Assembly (NCBI RefSeq): GCF_000021325.1
Contig: NC_011365.1
Span: 3,438,001 to 3,502,000, forward strand
DNA: 64,000 nt
Source: Gluconacetobacter diazotrophicus PA1 5
GTDB taxonomy: Bacteria; Pseudomonadota; Alphaproteobacteria; Acetobacterales; Acetobacteraceae
Direction: 5' to 3'
A model generated the notes under the pieces. The model was not told where the DNA came from. It ran no database searches and saw only the letters and a program-made list of their open reading frames with translations. Both the position numbers and the translations under genes were made by a program. Positions 7,332 to 48,501 of this stretch are shown here, in pieces (the stretch's first letter is position 1; every line of letters starts with the position of its first letter).

Positions 7332-8435
7332 ATGGATCAGATGGGCAGTCGATCCGCGTGGGGATTGTCGCGCCGCCGGGTGCTGATCGCAGGGGCGGGC
7401 GCGGGGGGCGCGGCCGCGCTGGCGGGCGGGCTGGCGGTGCGCCACCGGCTGCATCATCAGGCGGTCACTCATCACAAGGTGCTGCCCGACGGGCGTTTCC
7501 GCCGGCTGGCGCTGTCCTGGCCGTCCTCGAACATGCTGGTCTTCGCGGTGGCGCGGCAGCATTTCTTTGCCGCCTACAATCTGGACGTGGCGCTGGTCGG
7601 CGGTGCGCGCAGCGGGCGGGCCGCCATTGCCGACATGGTTGCCGGCCGGGCGGTGGGCGCGGCATCCCCGATCCTGACCTGGCTGGACGTGATGCGGCTG
7701 GGGGGAGTCCAGGCTCGTCTGGTCAGCGGCCTGCAATCCGGCACCTTCCGTTTGCTGGTCCGGCGCAAGCTCAAGGTCGTGCGGCTGGACGGCATCGCGG
7801 GGCTGCGAATCGCGGTAGTGGATCAGGACATGGCCGACCGGCTGTTCTTCTCGGTCATGATGCGGCGCAAGGGAATCGACCCCGAGGCATCGGTGCGCTG
7901 GGTCACCCTGCCACCCGAACAGGCGATGGATGCCGCCCGGGCGGGCGAGATCGACGCCGTGGCCGCGCACGACCCGCTGGCGTGGCAGTTGCTGCACGGG
8001 ACGGATTCGCCGTTCTTCGAACTGGCCAACAGCACGACGGGTCATTACGGCGAGCGTGCCAACCTGGCGCTGGGCCTGTCGGATTCGCTGCTGCAGTCCG
8101 ATCCGGCGGCGGCGGCGGCATTGGTCATGGCCCTGCGCGCGGCGTCGGACTGGATCAAGGCCCATCCCGACCAGGCGGCCAGCCTGATGACGGGGCAGAT
8201 TCCGGGCATGGAGACCGGCGACATCCTGTCCATGCTGCGGCACGAGACATTGGGCATCAGCCCCGTGGGGAACGACCTGCGGGTGCAGGTGGCGCAATAT
8301 GTGGATGAAATGAAGCTGCTGGGCCGCGTGCCCGATACGGTCGGATCGTCGGCCTATGCCAGGCGGGTCTGCGCCAATGCCCTGGTCACCGATACGCCCG
8401 CCGCGCTGTGGCCGCAGGCGGTCGGGCCCACATAG
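7332..8435 (+). CDS. Tat-exported SsuA/NMT1-like substrate-binding protein, orphan
   Basis: This 367-residue periplasmic binding protein resembles the nitrate/sulfonate/taurine/thiamine-precursor class. The N-terminus carries a twin-arginine signal, LSRRRVLIAGAGAGGAAALAGG, at residues 12-33. A two-lobe fold follows, with the class motifs DMVAGRAVGAA near 95, G-L-R-I-A-V near 155 and DAARAGEIDAVAAHDPLAW near 195. No permease or ATPase lies next to it, so it serves a transporter encoded elsewhere or acts as a sensor. It is convergent with the Rieske-less oxygenase gene, with 9 nt between stops. Ligand unknown. Confidence 0.8.
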   Translation: MDQMGSRSAWGLSRRRVLIAGAGAGGAAALAGGLAVRHRLHHQAVTHHKVLPDGRFRRLALSWPSSNMLVFAVARQHFFAAYNLDVALVGGARSGRAAIADMVAGRAVGAASPILTWLDVMRLGGVQARLVSGLQSGTFRLLVRRKLKVVRLDGIAGLRIAVVDQDMADRLFFSVMMRRKGIDPEASVRWVTLPPEQAMDAARAGEIDAVAAHDPLAWQLLHGTDSPFFELANSTTGHYGERANLALGLSDSLLQSDPAAAAALVMALRAASDWIKAHPDQAASLMTGQIPGMETGDILSMLRHETLGISPVGNDLRVQVAQYVDEMKLLGRVPDTVGSSAYARRVCANALVTDTPAALWPQAVGPT

Positions 8436-8444
8436 GGCGGGATA

Positions 8445-9311
8445 TTACAGACTATCCGTGGTGCCGTAGCGGACGCGTTTTTCCTTCAGCCATCTGCGAT
8501 AGGCGACCGAGAGCGAATCCGCCCGGGTCGGGATTTCCGCGCGGGGGTCCAGCGGCAGCAGGCGGGGGCGCTGGTTTTCCAGGATGATCCGGTCCTGCAG
8601 GAAGATCCGCTGCTGGAACTGGATCAGGTCCGCCTGGGGCGAGGTCTCGTCGATCAGGAACATGACCGGGTGCGCGCGGCATCGATCGGGCGCCGTGGGC
8701 TGGACGAACAGGGCGATGACGTCGGGGCGCACCGGATCGTTGGGGCACGTCTTGTACAGCAGCGTCACGAAGGGCGAGGCGACGCGGTAGATATAGCGCG
8801 TCTCCAGCCCCGTCAGGGCGGACAGGGCGGCCCGGGGCTGGTGGAACGCGCAGTCGGTGGCCCAGACCTCGTCCACGTCGCGGCGCCATTCGGTGTGGTA
8901 GCGCGCGACCTCGGTCTGCGGTTCGGCCCCCAGGATGTTGGTGTGGACGAAGGGAAAATGCGCCAGGTCGAGGAAGTTCTCGACCACGCGCAGGCCCGAG
9001 GCCCCGACATCGACCGAGCCGCAGCACACCAGTCGGCGGTCGGATTCCCTGGTCTCGGGGATGGCGACCGGTGCGTCGGGCGGCGTGCCCAGGCTGGTCC
9101 ACAGGCAGCCATGGCGTTCGGCGACCGGCAGGGGCGCGTCCCGACCCTCGGCCCGTACCTGGATCGCGCCGTCGGCCCCGCGATGGATCGCAAGCGCCGT
9201 GCCCAGCAGGGTGGTGCGCGGGGGCGGTGCGTCCAGGAAGCCGATGGCGTACCAGGCGTCCAGCACCGCGCGGTCGTCGGCGTCCACGTCAGGGAACGAG
9301 CGTGACGTCAT
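8445..9311 (-). CDS. Rieske-less non-heme iron oxygenase catalytic subunit, NdmC-like
   Basis: These 288 residues form the catalytic half of a VanA/NdmA-type oxygenase (aromatic ring-hydroxylase alpha subunit or O/N-demethylase). The mononuclear iron site is intact: N112, D115, H118 and H123 in ENFLDLAHFPFVH, and a distal Asp candidate D240 in FLQDRIILENQ. The N-terminal region is the oddity. Strand AIHRGADGA (41-49) jumps within about 15 residues to AERHGCLWTSLG (64-75), so the CxH...CxxH loop of a normal Rieske domain is absent. The caffeine N7-demethylase subunit NdmC is known to lack its Rieske domain in the same way. The ATG at 9311 has GGAGG 5 nt upstream. It is the last gene of the transporter operon. 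The substrate is inferred to be an N-methylated purine or related heterocycle. Confidence 0.8.
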   Translation of the reverse strand: MTSRSFPDVDADDRAVLDAWYAIGFLDAPPPRTTLLGTALAIHRGADGAIQVRAEGRDAPLPVAERHGCLWTSLGTPPDAPVAIPETRESDRRLVCCGSVDVGASGLRVVENFLDLAHFPFVHTNILGAEPQTEVARYHTEWRRDVDEVWATDCAFHQPRAALSALTGLETRYIYRVASPFVTLLYKTCPNDPVRPDVIALFVQPTAPDRCRAHPVMFLIDETSPQADLIQFQQRIFLQDRIILENQRPRLLPLDPRAEIPTRADSLSVAYRRWLKEKRVRYGTTDSL

Positions 9312-9322
9312 CAAGTCCTCCG

Positions 9323-10261
9323 TTATCGCACGTCGCGGTGGTAGGGGACGCCCAGCGCCGCCGGGGCCGCCATGATGCGGCGCATGCGATGCCAGGCCAG
9401 GACCGGGACGATGATGAACGCGATCGTGCCCAGATAGGGCAGCATGTTCAGGAAGGCCGGCGCGACCGGCCAGTTCCGCGCCTGCCCCACATAGGACAGC
9501 GCGGTGATCAGCCCGAACAGCAGGCCGGACAGCGTGGCGCTGAACGGCCGGTAGCCGGCGAAGATGACCAGCGCCAGGGCGATCCAGCCCCGGCCCGCGA
9601 CCAGGCCCTCGGACCAGACGGGAATATAGGTCAGGGTCAGGTAGCCGCCCGCCGCCCCGGCCAGGGCGGCGCCCAGCGTGACGTACCAGAAGCGCATGGC
9701 GGTGACGGGAATGCCCGCCGCGTCCGCCGCCGCCGGGTTTTCGCCCACCGCCCGCATGTTCAGCCCGTGCCGGGTATGGAACATCACCCAGTGCGCCAGC
9801 GCCGGCAGGACCAGATAGATCAGGTAGACCGGCAGGTTCTGCCCGAAGAAGGCCGGCCCGATCACCGGCAGGGACGACAGGCCCGGCACCGGCGCGCGGC
9901 CGAACGTGGCGGGGGACGGAATGCCGGCGTAATCGTGCCCGATGGTCGCGGACAGGCCCAGCCCCAGGAAGGTGACCGCCAGTCCGCACAGCACCTGGTT
10001 GGCGCGGATGACGACGGCGCCGAAGGCGAAGACCATGCCCCCCGCCGCCCCGGCCAGGGTGGCGGCCAGCAGGCCCAGCCAGGGATGCGGCGTGGCCACC
10101 ACCGTGATGATGGCGACGACGGCGCCCAGGGACATCAGCCCCTCGACCCCCAGGTTGGTGACGCCCACCCGTTCGGCCAGGACCTCGCCCAGCGCCGCCA
10201 GGGCCAGGACGCCCCCGGCCAGGACCGCGGTGGTCAGCATGCCGGTCAGCAGCGCGATCAT
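9323..10261 (-). CDS. Nucleoside-type ABC transporter permease (second)
   Basis: This is a 312-residue permease of the BPD_transp_2 family, the shorter of the pair found in BMP/nucleoside importers (NupQ/YufQ type). About nine hydrophobic segments are visible. VTNLGVEGLMSLGA at ~33-46 and MRAVGENPAAADAAGI at ~185 are hallmarks of these permeases. Its ATG overlaps the stop of the preceding permease by 4 nt (ATGA), and the oxygenase gene begins 11 nt after its stop. It should form the heterodimeric membrane channel with the upstream permease. Specificity for nucleosides or purine-like compounds is inferred from family. Confidence 0.92.
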   Translation of the reverse strand: MIALLTGMLTTAVLAGGVLALAALGEVLAERVGVTNLGVEGLMSLGAVVAIITVVATPHPWLGLLAATLAGAAGGMVFAFGAVVIRANQVLCGLAVTFLGLGLSATIGHDYAGIPSPATFGRAPVPGLSSLPVIGPAFFGQNLPVYLIYLVLPALAHWVMFHTRHGLNMRAVGENPAAADAAGIPVTAMRFWYVTLGAALAGAAGGYLTLTYIPVWSEGLVAGRGWIALALVIFAGYRPFSATLSGLLFGLITALSYVGQARNWPVAPAFLNMLPYLGTIAFIIVPVLAWHRMRRIMAAPAALGVPYHRDVR

Positions 10262-11343
10262 GGCGTGGACTCCGCACGGGTGGGGCCGGCAGGAGCGGCG
10301 GCCGGGCGGCTGGAGACGGGGCGGTAATGGGCCAGTTCGTCGCCGATGGCGATGGCGAACAGAACCAGCCCGGTGATGGCCAGCACCGCCGATGCCGTCA
10401 GTTGCTGCGTCTGCAGCACGATGCCGGAATCCAGGATGAAGGCCATCAGCAGCGCCGCCGGCAGCACGTTCAGGCACGATCCCCGTGCCAGCACCGCGAC
10501 CACGATGCCGAAATAGCCGAAATTGTTGGCCAGTCCCCCCTGAAGCCGATGGACGGTGCCCGCGACCTCGAACACCCCCGCCAGGGCGGCCAACCCGCCC
10601 GAGAGCAGCATGACCGCCACGATGCGCGCCCGGACCGGGATGCCGGCATAACGCGCGGCCTGTTCGTTCGCGCCGCTGATCGTGACCTGATAGCCCCAGC
10701 GTGTGCGCGCCATGACCGCCGCCAGCACCAGGACGATGGCCAGCGCCACCGGAAAGCCCCAATGCACGACGCCCCACAATTCGGGGACCTGCACCGGCAG
10801 CCGTCCCGTGGAGGCCAGCGCGCCGGTCACCCGGTCATGCCACGGCCCGACCGCCAGATAGGTGGTCAGCAATCCGGCGACGAAATTCAGCAGCAGGGTG
10901 GTGATGATCTCGTTCACGCCGGCATAGGCCCGGGCCAGGGTCGGGACCAGGATCCACGCCATGCCGCACAGGATGCCGCATACCGTCATCAGCGGCAGGA
11001 TGATGATCGCGGGCCCGGGCACGAAAAGGCCGATTCCCGCCGCCCCGATGGCGCCGGCATAGAACTGGCCCTCGGCCCCGATATTCCAGATGCCGATGCG
11101 CCCGGTGACGGTGACGGCGGCGCCGGTCAGCACCAGCGGGGTCATGAACAGGGCCAGGTCCTCCAGCCCGAAGCGCGACCCCACGGTGGAGCGCACCACC
11201 AGGTCGGCCAGCAGACGCGGGTCGCGCCCCGACAGGGCCAGGAACAGGGTGGTGACCAGCAGCGCGGCGACGACCGCGCCCGCGCGCCAGGCCAGCAGGC
11301 GCCCGGGCGCCACGGTGGGCAGGCGTTGCAGCTTGCCGGCCAT
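10258..11343 (-). CDS. Nucleoside-type ABC transporter permease (first)
   Basis: This is a 361-residue permease of the same BPD_transp_2 family (NupP/YufP type, the longer partner). The conserved cytoplasmic region IGAEGQFYAGAIGAAGIGL (~88-106) and NEIITTLLLNFVA near 143 identify it. About ten membrane segments follow a short basic N-terminus. The start overlaps the ATPase stop by 1 nt (TGATG), and the stop overlaps the next permease start by 4 nt, so these genes are translationally coupled. Confidence 0.92.
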   Translation of the reverse strand: MAGKLQRLPTVAPGRLLAWRAGAVVAALLVTTLFLALSGRDPRLLADLVVRSTVGSRFGLEDLALFMTPLVLTGAAVTVTGRIGIWNIGAEGQFYAGAIGAAGIGLFVPGPAIIILPLMTVCGILCGMAWILVPTLARAYAGVNEIITTLLLNFVAGLLTTYLAVGPWHDRVTGALASTGRLPVQVPELWGVVHWGFPVALAIVLVLAAVMARTRWGYQVTISGANEQAARYAGIPVRARIVAVMLLSGGLAALAGVFEVAGTVHRLQGGLANNFGYFGIVVAVLARGSCLNVLPAALLMAFILDSGIVLQTQQLTASAVLAITGLVLFAIAIGDELAHYRPVSSRPAAAPAGPTRAESTP

Positions 11344-12944
11344 CAGGCGGTTCCTCCCTTTGGTGCGGAATCCGGCCGGCCCGCGCGGCCGCCCATCAGC
11401 AGCCCCAGCGTTTCCATGTCCGCCGTCGCGGCGTCGATGGTCGCCATCAGGCGGCCGTGGAACAGCACGCCGATGCGGTCGGCCACGTTCAGCAGTTCCT
11501 CCAGATCCTCGGACACCAGCACGATGGCCACCCCCTGGTCGCGCAGGTCGGTCAGGTAGCGCAGCACGGTCGCGATCGCCCCGATATCCAGGCCCCGGCT
11601 GGGATAGGCCGCCACCAGCACCCGGCGGGCGATGCGGATTTCCCGCCGGGCCACCAGGCGCTGCTGGTTGCCGCCGGACAGGTTGCGGATCGGCATGGCA
11701 TAATCGGGAATGCGCACCTCCGCCGCCCCGGCCAGGTCCCGCGCCAGGGCTTCGGCGGCGCGCGGGTCGTACAGCCCGCGTCGCCCGATCGGCGGGCGGT
11801 CATATTCGCGCAGCGCCATGTTGTCGGTGATGCCCAGCGACGGTGCCAGGCCGCTGCGCAGCCGGTCCTCGGGGATATGGCCGATGCCCGCGTGGGCGAA
11901 GGCGGCGGCGTCGGCCGCGCGGACCGGTGCGCCGTCCAGCAGGATCTCGCCCGCCGTGGGCGGCAGCATGCCGGTCAGCACCTGGGTCAGTTCGCGCTGG
12001 CCGTTGCCGGCGACGCCGGCAATGCCCAGGATCTCGCCGCCATGCAGGTCCAGCGTCACGTCGCGAAGGGTCTCGATGCCACGCGCGTCGCGGCAGGTGA
12101 CGCCGCGCAGGCGCAGCACCGGGGCAGGGGCGATCGCGGCGCCGCCGGGTGGGCGGGCCCGCATGTCACGGCGTACGATGTCGCGCCCGACCATGGTGGC
12201 GGCCAGTCCCGCCGGGGTGCACTCCGCTGTCGGGTACGTGCCGATCCTGCGCCCGGCGCGCAGGATGCTGATCCGGTCCGAGATGTCCATGACCTCGTCC
12301 AGCTTGTGGCTGATCAGGATGACGGCGTTGCCCTGGGCGCGGAAGGCGCGCAGCGCGCGGAACAGGTCCCGCGCCTCGGCCGGCGTCAGTACGGCGGTCG
12401 GTTCGTCCAGGATCAGCAGCCGGGCCTGGCGGGCCAGCACGCGCAGGATTTCCACCCGCTGCTGCTCGCCCGCCGACAGGTCGCCCACCCGCGCGTCGGG
12501 CCGCACGGGAACGCCGAACCGGTCCGACAGCGCGCGGGTGCGCGATTCCAGGATGGCGGCCGAGGCGCGGGCCGGCGTGTCCCGCCAGCCCAGATGGATG
12601 TTTTCCGCGACCGTGAAGGCCGGGACCAGCTTGAAATGCTGGTGAACCATGCCGATTCCCGCCCGGATCGCATCCTGCGGCGAGGCGAAATGCTGACCGT
12701 AGCCATCCAGCACGATTTCGCCCGCATCGGGTTGGTAGATGCCGGTGACGACGTTCATCAGCGTGGACTTGCCCGCGCCGTTTTCGCCCAGCAGGGCATG
12801 GATTTCGCCGGGCCGGACATCCAGGCTGACATCCTGGTTCGCGATCACGCCGGGAAAATACTTGGAAATGCCCTGCAATTGCAGGATCGGCGGTGTGCCG
12901 GGCGCGACCGGCGGCGGTCCGTCGGCAAGCAGGGAGTCAGTCAA
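11343..12944 (-). CDS. Nucleoside-type ABC transporter ATPase, two nucleotide-binding domains
   Basis: This 533-residue tandem ATPase energises the importer (NupO/RbsA-like). Domain 1 has Walker A GENGAGKST at 53-61, signature LSAGEQQR and Walker B LLILDEPTAV. Domain 2 has a degenerate P-loop region (GIAGVAGNGQREL, no GKS/T), signature LSGGNQQR and AAYPSRGLDIGA, as is normal in this family, where one site is hydrolytically weak. It overlaps the end of the binding-protein gene by 8 nt and the first permease by 1 nt. The transporter set is complete: binding protein, double ATPase and two permeases. Confidence 0.94.
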   Translation of the reverse strand: MTDSLLADGPPPVAPGTPPILQLQGISKYFPGVIANQDVSLDVRPGEIHALLGENGAGKSTLMNVVTGIYQPDAGEIVLDGYGQHFASPQDAIRAGIGMVHQHFKLVPAFTVAENIHLGWRDTPARASAAILESRTRALSDRFGVPVRPDARVGDLSAGEQQRVEILRVLARQARLLILDEPTAVLTPAEARDLFRALRAFRAQGNAVILISHKLDEVMDISDRISILRAGRRIGTYPTAECTPAGLAATMVGRDIVRRDMRARPPGGAAIAPAPVLRLRGVTCRDARGIETLRDVTLDLHGGEILGIAGVAGNGQRELTQVLTGMLPPTAGEILLDGAPVRAADAAAFAHAGIGHIPEDRLRSGLAPSLGITDNMALREYDRPPIGRRGLYDPRAAEALARDLAGAAEVRIPDYAMPIRNLSGGNQQRLVARREIRIARRVLVAAYPSRGLDIGAIATVLRYLTDLRDQGVAIVLVSEDLEELLNVADRIGVLFHGRLMATIDAATADMETLGLLMGGRAGRPDSAPKGGTA

Positions 12945-14079
12945 GGCCGCTGACTCCTTCCACCGACCAGTCCCACTGATAGATCAGCGCATCGTCCATC
13001 ACCGTGCCGGCCGGCACGCGCAGCCGTCCGGCGGCATCGCGGATCGGGCCGCGGAACGGGTTGTACCCCGCCATGATCCGCGCGCGCATCGCATCGGCCT
13101 GGGCGGCGACGGCGGGTGGGACGGTCCGCCCCCAGGCGTCGCGGTCCACGCCCTGGCCCAGCGTCAGGAAATGCCCCTGCGGCTGCCAGGTGCCGGCCAG
13201 GCGCGCGCGGACCTGTTCCACATAATAGGCGCGGAAATCCAGCATCACCGAGCTGATATAGGCATCGGGCCCGTACTGGCGCATGTCGGTGTTCCACATC
13301 GCCGCCTTGATGCCGCGCTGCTGCGCCACGCGCAGATATCCGGGGTCGTCCATGATGCCGCACAGGAAGTCGCAGCCATTTTCGACCAGCGCGGTGCCGG
13401 CCTGGGTGGCGGCCTGCGGGTCGAACCAGGCGTTGATCGAAATCGCCTGCAATGTCGCGGCAGGGTTGACCGAGCGCGCGCCCAGCAGCACGGCGTTGGC
13501 CCCGGCATAGACCGAGGGAATGGGAAACGACCCCACGAAGCCCAGCCGGTTCGTCCTGGTCATCAGCCCGGCGGCGATGCCGATGACGTAGCTGGCATAC
13601 CAGTGGGTCAGGTAATACCAGCCCAGGTTGCCGGTGACGTTGTGCCCGTCGCATTCCATGAAGGCGACGCCGGGCGCGCGGTCCGAGACATCACGGATGA
13701 AATCACCGTAGTCCGAGGTCGCGATGACCATCTGCGCGCCCTCGGCCACGAACTGGCGGAAGATGCGCGTGGCGTCGGCGGAATAGGGAATGCTCTCGAC
13801 ATACACGGTCCGCAGGCGCGGGAAGGCGGCGCGCACGGCCTGCACCCCCTGGTCGTGCGCCGCCGTCCAGCCCCCGTCCGTAACCGGACCGGTATGGCCG
13901 AATGCGACCAGCGCATCGACCTCGGCGATGGGCGGCAGAAGGGGCGGGCGGGATTGCGCCAGCAGGGCCGGCGGGCGCAGCAGCCCTGTGCCCGCCGCGC
14001 CGGCCGCCAGCCCCAGGAAATGTCGTCGCAGATGGTGTCGCGTCGCCGGATGCCGCCCCCGCGGCCCGTGCGTGGTCAT
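12937..14079 (-). CDS. BMP-family (nucleoside-type) periplasmic binding protein
   Basis: This 380-residue exported binding protein of the basic membrane protein/PnrA family normally binds purine nucleosides or related ligands. The N-terminus HHLRRHFLGLAAGAAGTG looks like a Tat or Sec signal. The mature part begins near residue 45 and shows VTDGGWTAAHDQGVQAV, typical of the family (usually D-x-S-F/W-N-x-x-x-x-x-G). G-N-L-G-W-Y-Y-L and FVGSFPIPSVYAGANA follow. The ATG at 14079 is preferred over a further-upstream frame because of the signal sequence. It sits 99 nt downstream of the nicotinamidase stop and overlaps the ATPase gene. Confidence 0.88.
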   Translation of the reverse strand: MTTHGPRGRHPATRHHLRRHFLGLAAGAAGTGLLRPPALLAQSRPPLLPPIAEVDALVAFGHTGPVTDGGWTAAHDQGVQAVRAAFPRLRTVYVESIPYSADATRIFRQFVAEGAQMVIATSDYGDFIRDVSDRAPGVAFMECDGHNVTGNLGWYYLTHWYASYVIGIAAGLMTRTNRLGFVGSFPIPSVYAGANAVLLGARSVNPAATLQAISINAWFDPQAATQAGTALVENGCDFLCGIMDDPGYLRVAQQRGIKAAMWNTDMRQYGPDAYISSVMLDFRAYYVEQVRARLAGTWQPQGHFLTLGQGVDRDAWGRTVPPAVAAQADAMRARIMAGYNPFRGPIRDAAGRLRVPAGTVMDDALIYQWDWSVEGVSGLD

Positions 14080-14178
14080 ACCTGACCTGGAACGGTCATG
14101 TCTTCGTCTTCCCCCACTCGATGCCCGGGCCGGTCCCACCCGGCGCCGGGCGTTCCCCCGGTATGGTCGATCCCCCCC

Positions 14179-14769
14179 TTACTGTCCCGCCAGTTCGGCG
14201 GACCGGACACGCAGGATATCGTGCCGCGCCAGGGCCTGCCATGTGGCGTCGGGGTCGGGATCGATCCCACGGCAGGCATCTTCGACCACGATCGTTTCAA
14301 AACCAAGGGCTTTCGCGTCGATGGCGGTGAAGGCCACGCAATAATCCAGCGCCAGGCCGGCGATGAAGATTCGCGTGATCCCCAGCCCCCTCAGCCAGTC
14401 CTCCAGCCCCGTACGGGTGGTCCGGTCGTTGTCGAGGAAAGCGGAATAGCTGTCGACGTCCTGCGCGCGGCCCTTGCGGATCACCAGGCCGATCCGCGTC
14501 TGGTCCAGCGACGCCGCCAGCTCCGCGCCCGGGGTGCCGGCGACGCAATGCTGCCGCCAGGGGCCGGGCGGCCGGGCGGTGGCGAAGGATGCATGACCGT
14601 GCGGGTGCCAGTCCTGGCTGGCCGCCTGCTGGCCGAAGGGCAGGCGCGTCAGGTGGTTGATGACGGGAATGACGGCGTCCCCCTCGGGCACCGGCAGCGC
14701 GCCGCCGGGCAGGAAATCGTTCTGCAGGTCGATGACCAGAAGGGCATCATGCGCGGTCACGTGGATCAC
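14179..14769 (-). CDS. pncA: Nicotinamidase/pyrazinamidase
   Basis: PncA hydrolyses nicotinamide to nicotinate and ammonia for NAD salvage. The 196 residues have all catalytic elements of the family: Asp in LLVIDLQNDF, metal site DWHPHGHASF, H-C-V-A-G-T-P-G-A-E, catalytic Lys in VIRKG and nucleophilic Cys in GLALDYCVAFTAIDA. The start is GTG at 14769, supported by GAGGAGG 7 nt upstream. It is the first gene on the minus strand of the transporter/oxygenase locus and diverges from the Rieske-GST pair with 90 nt between. Its place here may mean the imported compound is a nicotinamide derivative, or it may simply be a neighbour. Confidence 0.93.
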   Translation of the reverse strand: MIHVTAHDALLVIDLQNDFLPGGALPVPEGDAVIPVINHLTRLPFGQQAASQDWHPHGHASFATARPPGPWRQHCVAGTPGAELAASLDQTRIGLVIRKGRAQDVDSYSAFLDNDRTTRTGLEDWLRGLGITRIFIAGLALDYCVAFTAIDAKALGFETIVVEDACRGIDPDPDATWQALARHDILRVRSAELAGQ

Positions 14770-14804
14770 GGTCGGGCCTCCTCGCGCGGGGCGGTTTCGA
14801 GACA

Positions 14805-14820
14805 GGGATGGCACGATCCC
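14805..14820. promoter_or_regulatory. Possible operator between divergent Rieske and pncA genes
   Basis: GGGAT-N6-ATCCC is a perfect 5-bp inverted repeat in the 90-bp divergent intergenic region that should hold both promoters. It is a plausible binding site for a shared regulator, but the arms are short and GC-rich and no second copy is seen. Confidence 0.2.
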
Positions 14821-14859
14821 GCCCGCCGGGCTATCGGAAGATAAAGGGGATGGAGAGGC

Positions 14860-15531
14860 ATGCGCATGGCGGGGGATCGGGGCGGCGGATGGTATCCGCT
14901 GATGCTGTCGGCGGATCTGGAGCCCGGCACCGTGGCCGGCTGCATCCTGCGGGGCCGTGAACTGGCGGTCTGGCGGGACGGGGCGGGGCAGGCGCATGTC
15001 TGGGACGATCGCTGCCCGCATCGCGGCATGCGGCTGAGCCTGGGATTCGTGCGCGAGGGCACGCTGGCCTGCCTGTATCACGGCTGGCGCTTCGGGGCCG
15101 GGGGGCGCTGCGTGCATATCCCCGCCCATCCCGACCTGACGCCCGCCGCCACGATCCGTGCCGCGCCGTTGCGGGCGGTGGAACGTCACGGCCTGGTCTG
15201 GACGGCGCCGGAGGACGGCGAAAGCAGCGCCCCGCAGGACGATCCGGCGATGGACGCCGTGGAGTGGACGCCCGTGCGTTCGCTGCGCATCGACGCCCCC
15301 TGGGGGAACGTGGCGACGGCGATCGGGATGCCGGACGGATGCCGGGTGGCGGTGCTGGACCGTGACGTCGCTGGGCCCGTGCTGGCCGCGATCCTGCCGG
15401 TGGATGGCACGCGCTGCATGCTGCACCTGCTGGCGGGTGGTCCGGCCGACCGGGGCGGCGACCGGGGCCGGCTGCACGATCTGGCCGACTGGGCGCAGGA
15501 TGTGTGCCGGCGGATGGAGGAAACGGCATGA
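14860..15531 (+). CDS. Stand-alone oxygenase-type Rieske [2Fe-2S] protein
   Basis: This 223-residue protein has an N-terminal Rieske domain of the ring-hydroxylase type, with C52-x-H54 and C71-x2-H74 separated by 16 residues (DRCPHRGMRLSLG ... ACLYHGWRFGAGG). After residue ~120 the sequence continues about 100 residues without the D-x2-H-x4-H mononuclear iron motif or any FMN/NAD reductase domain. It therefore has what the NdmC-like protein lacks and lacks what that protein has. In caffeine N7-demethylation the extra Rieske domain sits on the reductase NdmD; here it is free. The ATG at 14860 (GGAGAGG just upstream) or 14866 may be used. It overlaps the GST-fold gene by 4 nt (ATGA). Confidence 0.85.
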   Translation: MRMAGDRGGGWYPLMLSADLEPGTVAGCILRGRELAVWRDGAGQAHVWDDRCPHRGMRLSLGFVREGTLACLYHGWRFGAGGRCVHIPAHPDLTPAATIRAAPLRAVERHGLVWTAPEDGESSAPQDDPAMDAVEWTPVRSLRIDAPWGNVATAIGMPDGCRVAVLDRDVAGPVLAAILPVDGTRCMLHLLAGGPADRGGDRGRLHDLADWAQDVCRRMEETA

Positions 15532-16151
15532 GTGCGCTGGTGCTGCATGACGATGAACTGGACGAGGAGTGCTATCGGGCCCGGCTGTTCCTCTCGCTGC
15601 TGGGGCTGAAGGCACGCATTGTGGCGGTGGATGTGGTGCCGGGCGGCCTGCAGGATTCCCCGTCCTTTCGTGCCGTCAGTCCGGCGGGGCTGCTGCCTGT
15701 GCTGCGGATCGAGGGGCAGGAAATCTGCGGTGCCGGCGCGGTGCTGCTGGCGCTGGCGCACAAGCGCGGAAACTGGCTGCCGGACGACCCGGCCGCCTTC
15801 GCGCAGGTCGCGCACTGGCTGCATTTCGCGTCGGGCCCGCTGCGCCCCGCGATCGCGGCCCGGCGGGCCAGCCTGTTCGGCGGCGGCGAACCCGATGCCG
15901 CGCTACAGCGGCAGGGCGAGGCCGCGCTGCGGATCATGGAGGACCATATGGCCCATCGACGGCTGGATGGCGGGGCCTGGTTCGTGGGCGACACGCCCAG
16001 CGTGGCCGATATCGCCCTGTTCCCGTCCTTCGCCCTCAGCCGCGACTGGGGCGTGGACCACGCCTTCTACCCCGCGCTGCGGCGCTGGATGCGCGCGGTG
16101 CGGACGGTGCCGGGATTCGTCGGTATGTCCGGCATCCCCGAATATGCCTAA
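15528..16151 (+). CDS. GST-fold protein, NdmE-like, degenerate glutathione site
   Basis: This 207-residue protein has a thioredoxin-like N-domain (1-80) and an all-helical C-domain with VGDTPSVADIALFPSF at ~153-168, the GST capping motif. After the cis-Pro segment LLPVLR the glutathione-binding Glu/Asp-Ser pair (as in ESGAIL) is replaced by ICGAGAVLLALA, and the N-terminal active-site position is DDELDEECY. Glutathione catalysis is therefore doubtful. NdmE, a GST homologue, is a structural partner in the caffeine N7-demethylase complex, and the same role is inferred here. The start ATG at 15528 has GGAGG 7 nt upstream and overlaps the Rieske stop, so the two are made together. Confidence 0.82.
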   Translation: MSALVLHDDELDEECYRARLFLSLLGLKARIVAVDVVPGGLQDSPSFRAVSPAGLLPVLRIEGQEICGAGAVLLALAHKRGNWLPDDPAAFAQVAHWLHFASGPLRPAIAARRASLFGGGEPDAALQRQGEAALRIMEDHMAHRRLDGGAWFVGDTPSVADIALFPSFALSRDWGVDHAFYPALRRWMRAVRTVPGFVGMSGIPEYA

Positions 16152-16292: not shown

Positions 16293-16835
16293 ATGTCACT
16301 TTATGGCGCAAGCACCGAATATGTCCTGCACAGCCTTCTCTGGCTCGTCGGCAATCCCGAGCCTGTCAGCAGCCTCGATCTGGCGGACCTGCAGAACATT
16401 CCCGCGGCGTTTGTCGCCAAGCTTCTTCCCAGGCTCGAAAAGGCCGGCCTTCTTGAAGCTTCCGAAGGGTTGAGGGGTGGATACAGGCTGGCCAGACCCG
16501 CCGAGGACATCAGCGTGCTGGCCGTCGTCGACGCCGTTGAAGGCAGAAAGAGCCTTTTCAACTGTCAGGAAATCCGCGGACGCTGCGCCCTGTTCGACGA
16601 GCGGCCGCCACGATGGGCGACGCAGGGCGTTTGCGGCATTCACGCCGTCATGCTGCGGGCCGAGCAGGCCATGCGGCAGGAAATGGCTCGGACCTCGCTC
16701 GCCGATCTGGCCAGATCCGTTCGGGACAAGGCGCCGCTTCCGTTTCTGGGAGACGCACAATCATGGTTCGACGAACGCGTGCAGACCCGCCGCACCAGCA
16801 AGGTCAGACAACGAAGGCGGCCGGACACGCCCTGA
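16293..16835 (+). CDS. Rrf2-family transcriptional regulator
   Basis: This 180-residue DNA-binding regulator has a winged helix over the first ~85 residues (conserved STEYVLHSLLWL start, IPAAFVAKLLPRLEKAGLL recognition region and RGGYRLARPAEDISVLAVVDAVEG). Three cysteines, C91, C98 and C114, sit at the usual Fe-S cluster positions of IscR/NsrR relatives, so it may sense redox or nitrosative state. The C-terminus is longer and more basic than in IscR. It heads a module with a cupin and an SDR-type gene on the same strand. No clear ribosome-binding site precedes the ATG at 16293. Codon use is less GC-biased than in neighbours. Confidence 0.88.
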   Translation: MSLYGASTEYVLHSLLWLVGNPEPVSSLDLADLQNIPAAFVAKLLPRLEKAGLLEASEGLRGGYRLARPAEDISVLAVVDAVEGRKSLFNCQEIRGRCALFDERPPRWATQGVCGIHAVMLRAEQAMRQEMARTSLADLARSVRDKAPLPFLGDAQSWFDERVQTRRTSKVRQRRRPDTP

Positions 16836-46859: not shown

Positions 46860-47834
46860 ATGGATGTCGGACCGGCGGGGCGGACCACGCCCGGATTGGC
46901 GGCGCGGCTGCTGCTGCGGCACATGACCAGCCGGGCGAGGCAGCGGGCGCAGGTGCCGCATACGCTCGAATCCCTGCGACAGGCGCTGGACCGCCCCTGC
47001 TTCCCGCAGGCGCTGTCCAGCCTGCCGCTGCGCCGGGTCCTGGCGGTACGGGTTCCCGGGGCGACGGAACTGCGCCCCGCGCGGCTGTATGTTCCCCGTG
47101 GCCGCGTCCGGGGTGTGGTCCTGTTCCTGCATGGCGGCGGGTTCGTGCATTGCGGCCTGAACTCGCATCATGGAATCTGCTGCCGCCTGGCACGGGCATC
47201 AGGCGCCGCCGTGCTGTCCTACGACTATCGCCTGTCGCCGGAACACCGTTTTCCGGGCGCGGTCGAGGACTGCCTGGCCGCGCTGGACTGGCTGGCGGGC
47301 GAGGCCTGGCGCTGGGGCGGCCCGATCGCGGTGGCCGGGGACAGCGCGGGCGGCAACCTGGCGGCGGTCCTGGCCCTGCTGGCGCGCGATCGCGGCGGGC
47401 CGGACCTGGCGCTGCAACTGCTGTACTACCCCTCGCTCTATGGCGAGCGGGACGTGCCGTCGCGCCATCGCTATGCGGAGGGCTACATGCTGACGACGCG
47501 ACTGATGGAATGGTACGCGCAGCAATATATCCGCACGCCCGACGACCTGCGTCATCCGCTGATGGCCCCGATCCATGCCGACTCGCTGGCGGGACTGCCG
47601 CCGGCGGTCATCGTGCCCGCGCAGTGCGACCCGCTGCATGACGAGGCCACGGGCTATGCCGCCGCCCTGCGCGAAGCGGGCGGCCAGGCGGAGGTGCGCT
47701 GCTATCCCGGCACGATCCACGGCTACCTGAACCTGTATTCGTTCATGCCGTGGGGGAAGGCGGCCATCCGTTTCGGCGGCAAACGCCTGCGCGCGGCGTT
47801 TGCCGGGCAGGACCCGGTCAGATCTGCTGGATAG
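46860..47834 (+). CDS. HSL-family alpha/beta hydrolase (esterase)
   Basis: This 324-residue serine esterase belongs to the hormone-sensitive-lipase (bacterial family IV) group. The oxyanion motif HGGGFVHCG is near residue 91, the nucleophile elbow [14 protein letters not shown] is near 163, and the catalytic Asp ([10 protein letters not shown]) and His ([19 protein letters not shown]) follow in order. The ATG at 46860 is chosen because GGGAGG lies about 8 nt upstream; earlier in-frame ATGs sit in the rnpB leader. Its 3' end overlaps the convergent bc1-Rieske gene by 17 nt. Substrate is likely a short acyl ester, not definable further. Confidence 0.9.
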
Positions 47835-48501
47835 AGGAAAAGTCGAAATCGGACCCCGCCGGGTTCTGCCCCAGGCGGATCGTCGTCGGGCCGGGCATCG
47901 AATAGGGCGGGACGGGCAGGTTGTACGGCGCCGGCGCGCCGGTGAAGACCCGGCCCGCCAGGTCGAATTTGGACCCGTGGCACGGGCAGGCATAGCCGCC
48001 GGGCCAGTTGGCGATCGGCGTTGCCGGATCGGGGGCGGGGGAATAGGTCGGTACGCAGCCCAGATGGGTGCAGATCCCGACCACCACGCCAAATTCCGGT
48101 TTGATGGAACGGTGCCAGTTGGCGGCATAGGGCGGCTGCTGCAGCGCGCCCGATGACGGGTCGCGCAGCCGGGCGGCCAGCGCGGCCTCCTGCAGCCGGG
48201 CCAGGGATTCCGGCGTGCGGTGGGTGATGAAGACCGGGCTGCCGTGCCACACCACCGTGATCTGCTGGCCGGGCGGCAGTTTCGACACGTCCACGTCGAC
48301 CGGCGCACGCGCCGATTTCGTGTCGCCGGGGCGCAGGCTGTCCAGGAACGGCCATGCGAACGCGGCCGCCCCCGCGCCGCCGGCGGCCAGGGTGACCAGC
48401 GTCAGGAAATCGCGGCGCCCCGTGCCGGGAAGGGCGGTTCCGGTCGGGTGGGGGCCTGTCTCGGGCGTTCCGGTCGTCGTCATCGTGGTCCTGTCGGCCA
48501 A
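47818..48501 (-). CDS. petA: Ubiquinol-cytochrome c reductase Rieske iron-sulfur subunit
   Basis: This is the Rieske subunit of complex III, passing electrons from ubiquinol to cytochrome c1. The 227 residues have a twin-arginine anchor ([20 protein letters not shown] at 27-46) and the cluster motifs C144-T-H-L-G-C149 and C172-P-C-H-G-S. The extra disulfide cysteines of bc1-type Rieske proteins are in these boxes. The cytochrome b and c1 genes that normally follow are absent; the gene instead ends a group with zwf and a small hypothetical gene. It overlaps the convergent esterase by 17 nt. Confidence 0.92.

Follow-up and report, generated by a model that had tools for sequence, protein, structure and literature searches.

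A Rieske-type oxygenase divided into two complementary halves in Gluconacetobacter diazotrophicus and other Alphaproteobacteria, probably a heteromeric purine oxygenase

Can the Rieske cluster and the mononuclear iron, which share one chain in an ordinary Rieske oxygenase alpha subunit, be divided between two proteins that act as one enzyme? This question is raised by a locus in Gluconacetobacter diazotrophicus PA1 5 (NC_011365.1:3,438,001-3,502,000, the 64,000-nt stretch analyzed here, referred to as the window, whose numbering is used throughout), which encodes a protein with the iron site (P0001, the catalytic half), a protein with the Rieske cluster (P0002, the Rieske half), and a third protein with a glutathione S-transferase (GST) fold (P0003). 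The three were picked out from the DNA letters in an original prediction of a split oxygenase, and from their anatomy, single ancestry, strict co-occurrence, and gene neighborhood we infer a complex, together with its electron path, donor, substrate, and reaction. It is highly probable that P0001, P0002, and P0003 are subunits of one Rieske-type oxygenase built from two complementary halves, with a purine as the most likely substrate; we read the locus as encoding a purine oxygenase of unlike subunits, which may hydroxylate C8.

The two halves complement each other in anatomy. As predicted, the first protein combines an iron motif with the absence of a Rieske loop, its coordinates, length, and residues all being confirmed, and Pfam agrees, with a VanA_C match (1.7e-19) and none to Rieske. 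The second was likewise correctly described as having a Rieske motif and no iron site; in Pfam it matches Rieske (2.4e-22) and neither a catalytic nor a reductase domain, while P0003 has the N- and C-terminal GST domains. The residues N112, D115, H118, H123, and D240 of P0001 are invariant in 20/20 aligned orthologues, and the cluster ligands of P0002 in 21/21. The same division is seen in relatives from 80 loci, the best 80 of 572 confirmed places in genome contigs (ten of them lie pairwise on five contigs, giving 73 distinct Rieske and 73 distinct GST genes). Among their catalytic proteins, none of which was dropped by length (82/82 kept), the CxH...CxYH motif is absent in 82/82 and the iron motif present in 82/82; the cluster motif is seen in 78/78 Rieske relatives and the iron motif in 0/78 (73 distinct proteins; that of L161, 321 aa long from the start chosen, was retained). 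Thus, neither P0001 nor P0002 holds cluster and iron site in one chain. An assembly error or frameshift was considered and rejected, as both genes recur at 99-100% identity in another strain of the species and 82/82 relatives are alike; the normal Rieske domain that would have undone the prediction is found neither in that strain nor in the 82 relatives.

Structure models give both halves the two-domain alpha-subunit fold. P0001 retains the strands that flank a Rieske domain while the cluster loops are gone, and in P0002 the catalytic domain has shrunk to some 90 residues; nearly the full length of each model aligns with complete alpha subunits. Among solved structures, SxtT and GxtA (SxtDIOX) are the best matches to both halves, in sequence (E 1.9e-15 and 9.6e-29) as well as in fold; unlike the split halves, they are single complete chains acting on saxitoxin-type substrates. 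Judged from its model, P0002 is more than a Rieske domain, namely an entire alpha subunit in degenerate form. Of the earlier description of the Rieske part, a free protein with no reductase attached stands, whereas a bare domain does not; a bare ferredoxin is likewise unlikely, given the whole-length fold match to alpha subunits.

The co-occurrence of the families in relatives, named in the original prediction as a check, is strict. In a family-level sample of 249 genomes (P0001 orthologues at no less than 46% identity and P0002-like short proteins, with 18 genomes read by eye from the result tables), both halves are found in the same 18 genomes, the window's own and the second strain included, and none has one alone (18/18 vs 0/231), among the matches listed, for which at most 11 candidates per genome were scored in the P0001 search. 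In a class-level sample of 385 genomes searched with profiles of both halves under strict limits (at most six and at most eight candidates scored per genome), the result is the same in eight genomes, the window's own included (8/8 vs 0/377), and in the seven others the halves are neighbors on one contig. The Fisher values, p = 9e-28 and 9e-17, respectively, ignore kinship and overstate independence because the genomes are related. Some Rieske matches sit in longer frames: in G145, an ATG start within a 380-codon frame gives 218 aa, whereas those of G423 and G447, in frames of 466 and 600 codons, were counted without a check for fusions. The next matches listed in the family searches are open frames of at least about 343 codons, several being one frame matched by both queries (e.g., G165:C12); frames of this kind are ordinary Rieske oxygenases.

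Across the 80 loci, Rieske and GST homologues both lie within the fetched stretch in 78; the genomes of the remaining two loci, L158 and L165, encode the Rieske protein on a different contig (E 1.3e-60 and 9.7e-63, respectively). It should be noted that GST counts, like those of ATPases and amidohydrolases below, come from tblastn at E 1e-7 and may include paralogues. The 79 loci with a placed organism comprise 60 from Hyphomicrobiales, 13 from Acetobacterales, five from Rhodobacterales, and one from Rhodospirillales; the halves are spread through many soil and vinegar bacteria of at least four orders of Alphaproteobacteria. In Rhizobium johnstonii 3841, a single operon runs Rieske, catalytic, GST, amidohydrolase, and BMP-type ATP-binding cassette (ABC) transporter genes, with 4-base overlaps among the first three.

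The same three building blocks are known, as homologues, from NdmCDE, the N7-demethylase of methylxanthines in Pseudomonas putida CBB5, and the comparison drawn in the original prediction holds as homology. The references, classed by their gene order and used in place of the CBB5 sequence, are clusters from P. putida KF715, Klebsiella pneumoniae SKGH01, and Sinorhizobium meliloti; their NdmC-type catalytic proteins share 46-48% identity with P0001, have the iron site without the Rieske motif, and fall in the same clade. The N-terminal part of NdmD-type fusions matches P0002, the shrunken catalytic remnant being matched in the S. meliloti fusion only, and NdmE-type GSTs share 33-38% identity with P0003 (E 4e-30 to 2e-37 against three such proteins). 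In contrast, NdmD is a Rieske module fused to a flavin/NADH (reduced nicotinamide adenine dinucleotide) reductase, whereas P0002 is free, and the cassette of three genes, unlike NdmCDE, is linked to genes for an ABC transporter, a guanine deaminase, and 8-oxoguanine-deaminase-like proteins. The locus is homologous to NdmCDE, and would function in a similar way, without its defining Rieske–reductase fusion, a variant of that system for which Micromonas provides a precedent. In Micromonas chlorophyllide a oxygenase (CAO), the Rieske cluster and the iron are divided between two chains, and we know of no GST associated with it. The two polypeptides, CAO1 and CAO2, are described for M. pusilla in the available part of PMC9615114; the precedent, likened by description and not by sequence, concerns the split principle, in a eukaryote and on another substrate. 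According to the portions available of PMC10380055 and PMC4408171, NdmCDE is a characterized complex with three of each subunit, in which NdmE is non-catalytic, and NdmC alone goes into inclusion bodies; the available text of the latter also mentions that Sinorhizobium and Mesorhizobium carry homologues of ndmCDE with no known function. No description of a form with a free Rieske protein was found in the open-licence literature searched.

The nearest intact relatives of both halves are HpxD-type proteins, HpxD/HpxE being a molybdenum-independent xanthine hydroxylase, which form a separate sister group in both trees. HpxD has both metal sites in one chain, a VanB-type reductase (HpxE) adjacent, and no GST beside it in the stretch examined, and the locus differs from it in these respects; its purine substrate is an annotation (PMC7373994, in the part available). 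In the catalytic tree, assembled by hand from 30 of the 82 catalytic proteins, 20 aligned orthologue rows, and 20 reference or intact rows, the 58 split rows form one clade (SH-aLRT, a likelihood-ratio branch support, of 96) beside HpxD-type intact enzymes and apart from NdmA/NdmB-type proteins. The 49 split Rieske rows also form one clade beside HpxD-type enzymes (SH-aLRT 99). NdmC-type proteins are nested in the former and NdmD-type in the latter. When all free Rieske proteins were forced together against NdmD, the cost was 42 log units (approximately unbiased test, p = 0.0012; 14 of the 80 loci, hand-picked, with the test group named after a first quick tree). The simplest reading of these trees would be a single duplication of an HpxD-like protein with reciprocal loss, followed later by fusion to a reductase. 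The free Rieske subunit is probably older than the NdmD fusion, because NdmD-type fusions are nested within the clade and look derived. Given that branches are long and that one free Rieske protein (L104) stands next to the S. meliloti fusion, a secondary fission, or fusion on two occasions, may have occurred instead. Another permutation occurs in Variovorax paradoxus VAI-C (L197:6268-9415), where the catalytic half is fused to a reductase and the Rieske protein is free, together with a GST and beside a BMP protein.

Table 1. Features of the locus, in window coordinates
Feature	Position	Strand	Remarks
P0001, catalytic half, 288 aa	8445..9311	-	Rieske-oxygenase alpha-subunit relative; mononuclear iron site; two cluster loops deleted from Rieske domain
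Iron motif N112-x2-D115-x2-H118-x4-H123 of P0001	8943..8978	-	third ligand D240 at 8592-8594
ABC permease B	9323..10261	-	11-base gap upstream of P0001 gene; homologue in 49/80 loci
ABC permease A (BPD_transp_2)	10258..11343	-	homologue in 49/80 loci
ABC transporter ATP-binding protein	11343..12944	-	ATPase homologue in 56/80 loci
BMP/PnrA-like substrate-binding protein	12937..14139	-	Pfam Bmp 3.1e-28; homologue in 58/80 loci
P0002, Rieske half, 223 aa	14860..15531	+	alpha-subunit relative; intact Rieske domain; shrunken catalytic domain without iron ligands
Rieske cluster motif C52-x-H54 ... C71-x2-H74 of P0002	15013..15081	+	
P0003, GST-fold third protein, 207 aa	15528..16151	+	Pfam; start inside P0002 stop (ATGA)

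In the window (Table 1), the genes for the BMP protein, the ATPase, and two permeases form a tightly spaced run on the minus strand, of which the P0001 gene is the last; frame inspection shows that the two permease genes overlap by ATGA. In each of the 58 loci with a BMP homologue, the best match has at least 54% identity, while in six of the 56 with an ATPase homologue the matches are all below 45% and are perhaps other ABC ATPases. The joining of the GST gene to the Rieske gene by an ATGA overlap, as predicted, was verified at 15528, and a GST homologue accompanies the catalytic gene in 78/80 loci. In catalytic glutathione S-transferases, an E/D-S dipeptide binds the gamma-glutamyl group of glutathione. 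Unlike its counterparts in the P. putida and K. pneumoniae clusters, P0003 has GA in this place; the dipeptide is present in three of 23 aligned rows, the third being R. johnstonii. The lack of this glutathione-binding dipeptide fits a structural role for P0003. The C-terminus of the aligned GSTs reads MPGIPDY[HA] in most rows and MSGI in the NdmE type, and is by look far better conserved than the remainder; as a reading of the alignment, it is a possible docking tail.

How would such halves work together? Most probably, an HpxD-like alpha subunit was duplicated, after which one copy (now P0001) would have lost the cluster-holding loops and kept the iron site, whereas the other (now P0002) would have kept the cluster and lost the iron ligands together with part of the catalytic domain. 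Electrons would then pass from the P0002 cluster to the P0001 iron across the subunit interface, as they do between identical subunits of ordinary Rieske trimers, with a separate electron donor taking the place of the reductase carried by NdmD. Known Rieske oxygenases pass electrons from the cluster of one subunit to the iron of the next through a bridging aspartate, and the retention of D115 in 20/20 cluster-less catalytic proteins fits electron supply from a partner. A purine base would most likely enter via the adjacent BMP-type ABC transporter and be oxidized at its imidazole edge, at C8 or N7.

Moreover, several loci have two catalytic genes, divergent paralogues, with a single Rieske/GST pair. 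This arrangement is seen on the contigs of L119/L174, L128/L182, L136/L172, L139/L186, and L166/L169 (identical Rieske sequences), as well as in L167, Rhizobium tumorigenes (L189), and G579; S. meliloti has two catalytic genes beside one Rieske–reductase fusion. Such gene orders suggest that one electron-supplying Rieske/GST pair may be common to several catalytic subunits. In R. tumorigenes (L189:1-6047), the genes next to the second catalytic gene encode an amidohydrolase, a GMC oxidoreductase, a two-part thiamine pyrophosphate (TPP)-dependent decarboxylase, and a molybdopterin-binding protein, the scanned part of which is similar to the flavin adenine dinucleotide (FAD) subunits of xanthine dehydrogenase; together they may form a pathway.

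With respect to the substrate, the context is purine/guanine metabolism. Guanine deaminase genes occur in 33/80 loci, in 24 of which they lie within 300 bases of the catalytic gene on the same strand. Genes resembling 8-oxoguanine deaminase occur in 40/80 loci; 22 of these have at least 38% identity to the query, and this closer type lies within 300 bases of the catalytic gene on its strand in 17/80. Amidohydrolases at 26-30% identity are another kind, and the one scanned falls under every cut-off. By the NCBIfam model NF006055 (cut-off 532 bits), on which calls of 8-oxoguanine deaminase rest here, the neighbors in Bradyrhizobium (613 bits) and Acetobacteraceae (555) pass, and that in R. johnstonii (372) fails. 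At the genome level, such a deaminase over the cut-off is present in 18/18 cassette genomes vs 46/231 others (p = 3e-12, relatedness ignored). By genus, the presence of the cassette matches that of the deaminase in g1, g73, and g78; two g84 genomes encode the deaminase but lack the cassette. Kinship with HpxD and the 8-oxo link favor oxidation at C8, and kinship with NdmC favors N7; as C8 and N7 share one edge of the purine, a single mode of binding might suit either reaction.

A more specific version is put forward tentatively, namely a dedicated guanine C8-hydroxylase that makes 8-oxoguanine as a catabolic intermediate, to be carried by 8-oxoguanine deaminase to urate. This enzyme would be modular, with the free Rieske/GST pair powering interchangeable catalytic subunits, a general cell ferredoxin as donor in place of a reductase of its own, and the NdmD fusion as a later derivative. 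In the window genome, five Fer2 matches were found, one in a 121-codon frame.

Among alternatives, one that is rather unlikely overall and yet survives best is N7-demethylation as in NdmCDE, in which the enzyme would demethylate 7-methylguanine or 7-methylxanthine and the adjacent guanine deaminase would handle the released guanine. The nesting of NdmC-type proteins in the split catalytic clade and the close same-strand guanine deaminases at 24/80 loci speak for it. However, the nearest intact relatives are of the HpxD type, annotated as xanthine hydroxylases, and not of the NdmA/NdmB type, and the association with 8-oxoguanine deaminase would be left unexplained. In addition, no formaldehyde genes are annotated in two Rhizobium stretches (the count was not extended to the 80 loci), whereas the Paraburkholderia caffeinilytica cluster has them. 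It is far less probable that the halves have different partners, P0002 shuttling electrons to a different oxygenase in the manner of a ferredoxin and P0001 being fed from elsewhere. The two genes are indeed about 5.5 kb apart on opposite strands in the window, and a catalytic relative borne on a plasmid has no Rieske partner there; on the other side stand the exceptionless co-occurrence in two samples, the shared contigs in the seven other class genomes, and the pairing at 78/80 loci, as well as the similarity of the catalytic and Rieske trees, the homology of both halves to NdmC- and NdmD-type proteins, and an alpha-subunit fold of P0002 that would be superfluous for a ferredoxin. Genome decay, with P0001 as a decaying pseudo-enzyme whose cluster loops were deleted and P0002 as an unrelated Rieske protein, can be dismissed for practical purposes, since the iron ligands are invariant in 20/20 and the iron motif kept in 82/82 relatives, across at least four alphaproteobacterial orders, and the split rows form a single clade in each tree.

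Several observations weigh against a purine oxygenase of obligately paired halves, or against parts of that proposal. For the plasmid-borne relative just mentioned (Roseicitreum antarcticum, L191:11959-12825, 62% identity), a search of the entire plasmid, the chromosome being outside it, gave no Rieske partner, and the 24.8 kb read contain no Rieske or GST gene. Residues 122-129 of P0001, adjacent to H123, are poorly modeled. Of the 100 fetched stretches (which overlap partly, L107 and L109 being one contig), 99 lack a VanB/NdmD-type reductase and one has it. In the window genome no full-length one was found, the best match being partial (E 1.5e-11), with thioredoxin-reductase-like ferredoxin reductases outside the search; two NAD_binding_1 proteins are present there. 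Strong matches elsewhere in G083 and G251, two of eight cassette genomes searched (E 4e-58 to 2e-60), indicate that a distant reductase may serve some members. The 8-oxoguanine deaminase of the window genome lies about 396 kb from the cassette, with nothing telling around it (ten frames scanned; a short-chain dehydrogenase/reductase, SecD/SecF, PurK, and a GAF/HTH_8 protein). In 15/18 cassette genomes, including G000 and G248, the deaminase is of a low-scoring subtype (546-563 bits, vs mostly 625-743 elsewhere), perhaps a subfamily with its own substrate; 8-oxoguanine is therefore not assured, which slightly lowers the odds of guanine C8 hydroxylation. Finally, xanthine dehydrogenase is over its cut-off in 15/18 cassette genomes, so urate can arise without the cassette. 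A role for the cassette as a replacement for xanthine dehydrogenase is not supported in view of these 15 genomes and of the cassette-free G002, which has that enzyme too.

If the proposed purine oxygenase of paired halves is correct, duplication and reciprocal loss, apparently on a single occasion, would have turned a two-cofactor enzyme into two obligate partners that several alphaproteobacterial orders have retained. With cluster and iron encoded by separate genes, each could be mutated alone, and the locus would also offer a bacterial system in which to test how electrons pass from one Rieske oxygenase subunit to another; the substrate of a large family becomes testable. Should the guanine C8 version hold, 8-oxoguanine deaminase would be a pathway enzyme here, beyond cleaning up oxidative damage, which could account for its presence in many genomes.

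A few further genes surround the cassette in the window. A nicotinamidase (PncA) gene lies between the two halves (14179-14838) and is beside the cassette in 6/80 loci, those of Gluconacetobacter and Acetobacter. A same-strand gene just 3′ of that for the GST encodes an Rrf2-family regulator (16293-16835), a family whose members often sense Fe–S clusters. Convergent with the catalytic gene is one for an NMT1/SsuA-like binding protein (7332-8435). NMT1-like genes are linked to a xanthine riboswitch in the available part of PMC7373994; no Rfam match to this (NMT1) riboswitch at the gathering score was found in the window or in L113, L114, and L119 (three of the 80 loci). Far from the cassette, a second Rieske protein of 227 aa (47818-48501) gives a weak match (25.7 bits). 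By its sequence, this one resembles the Rieske protein of a cytochrome bc1 complex.

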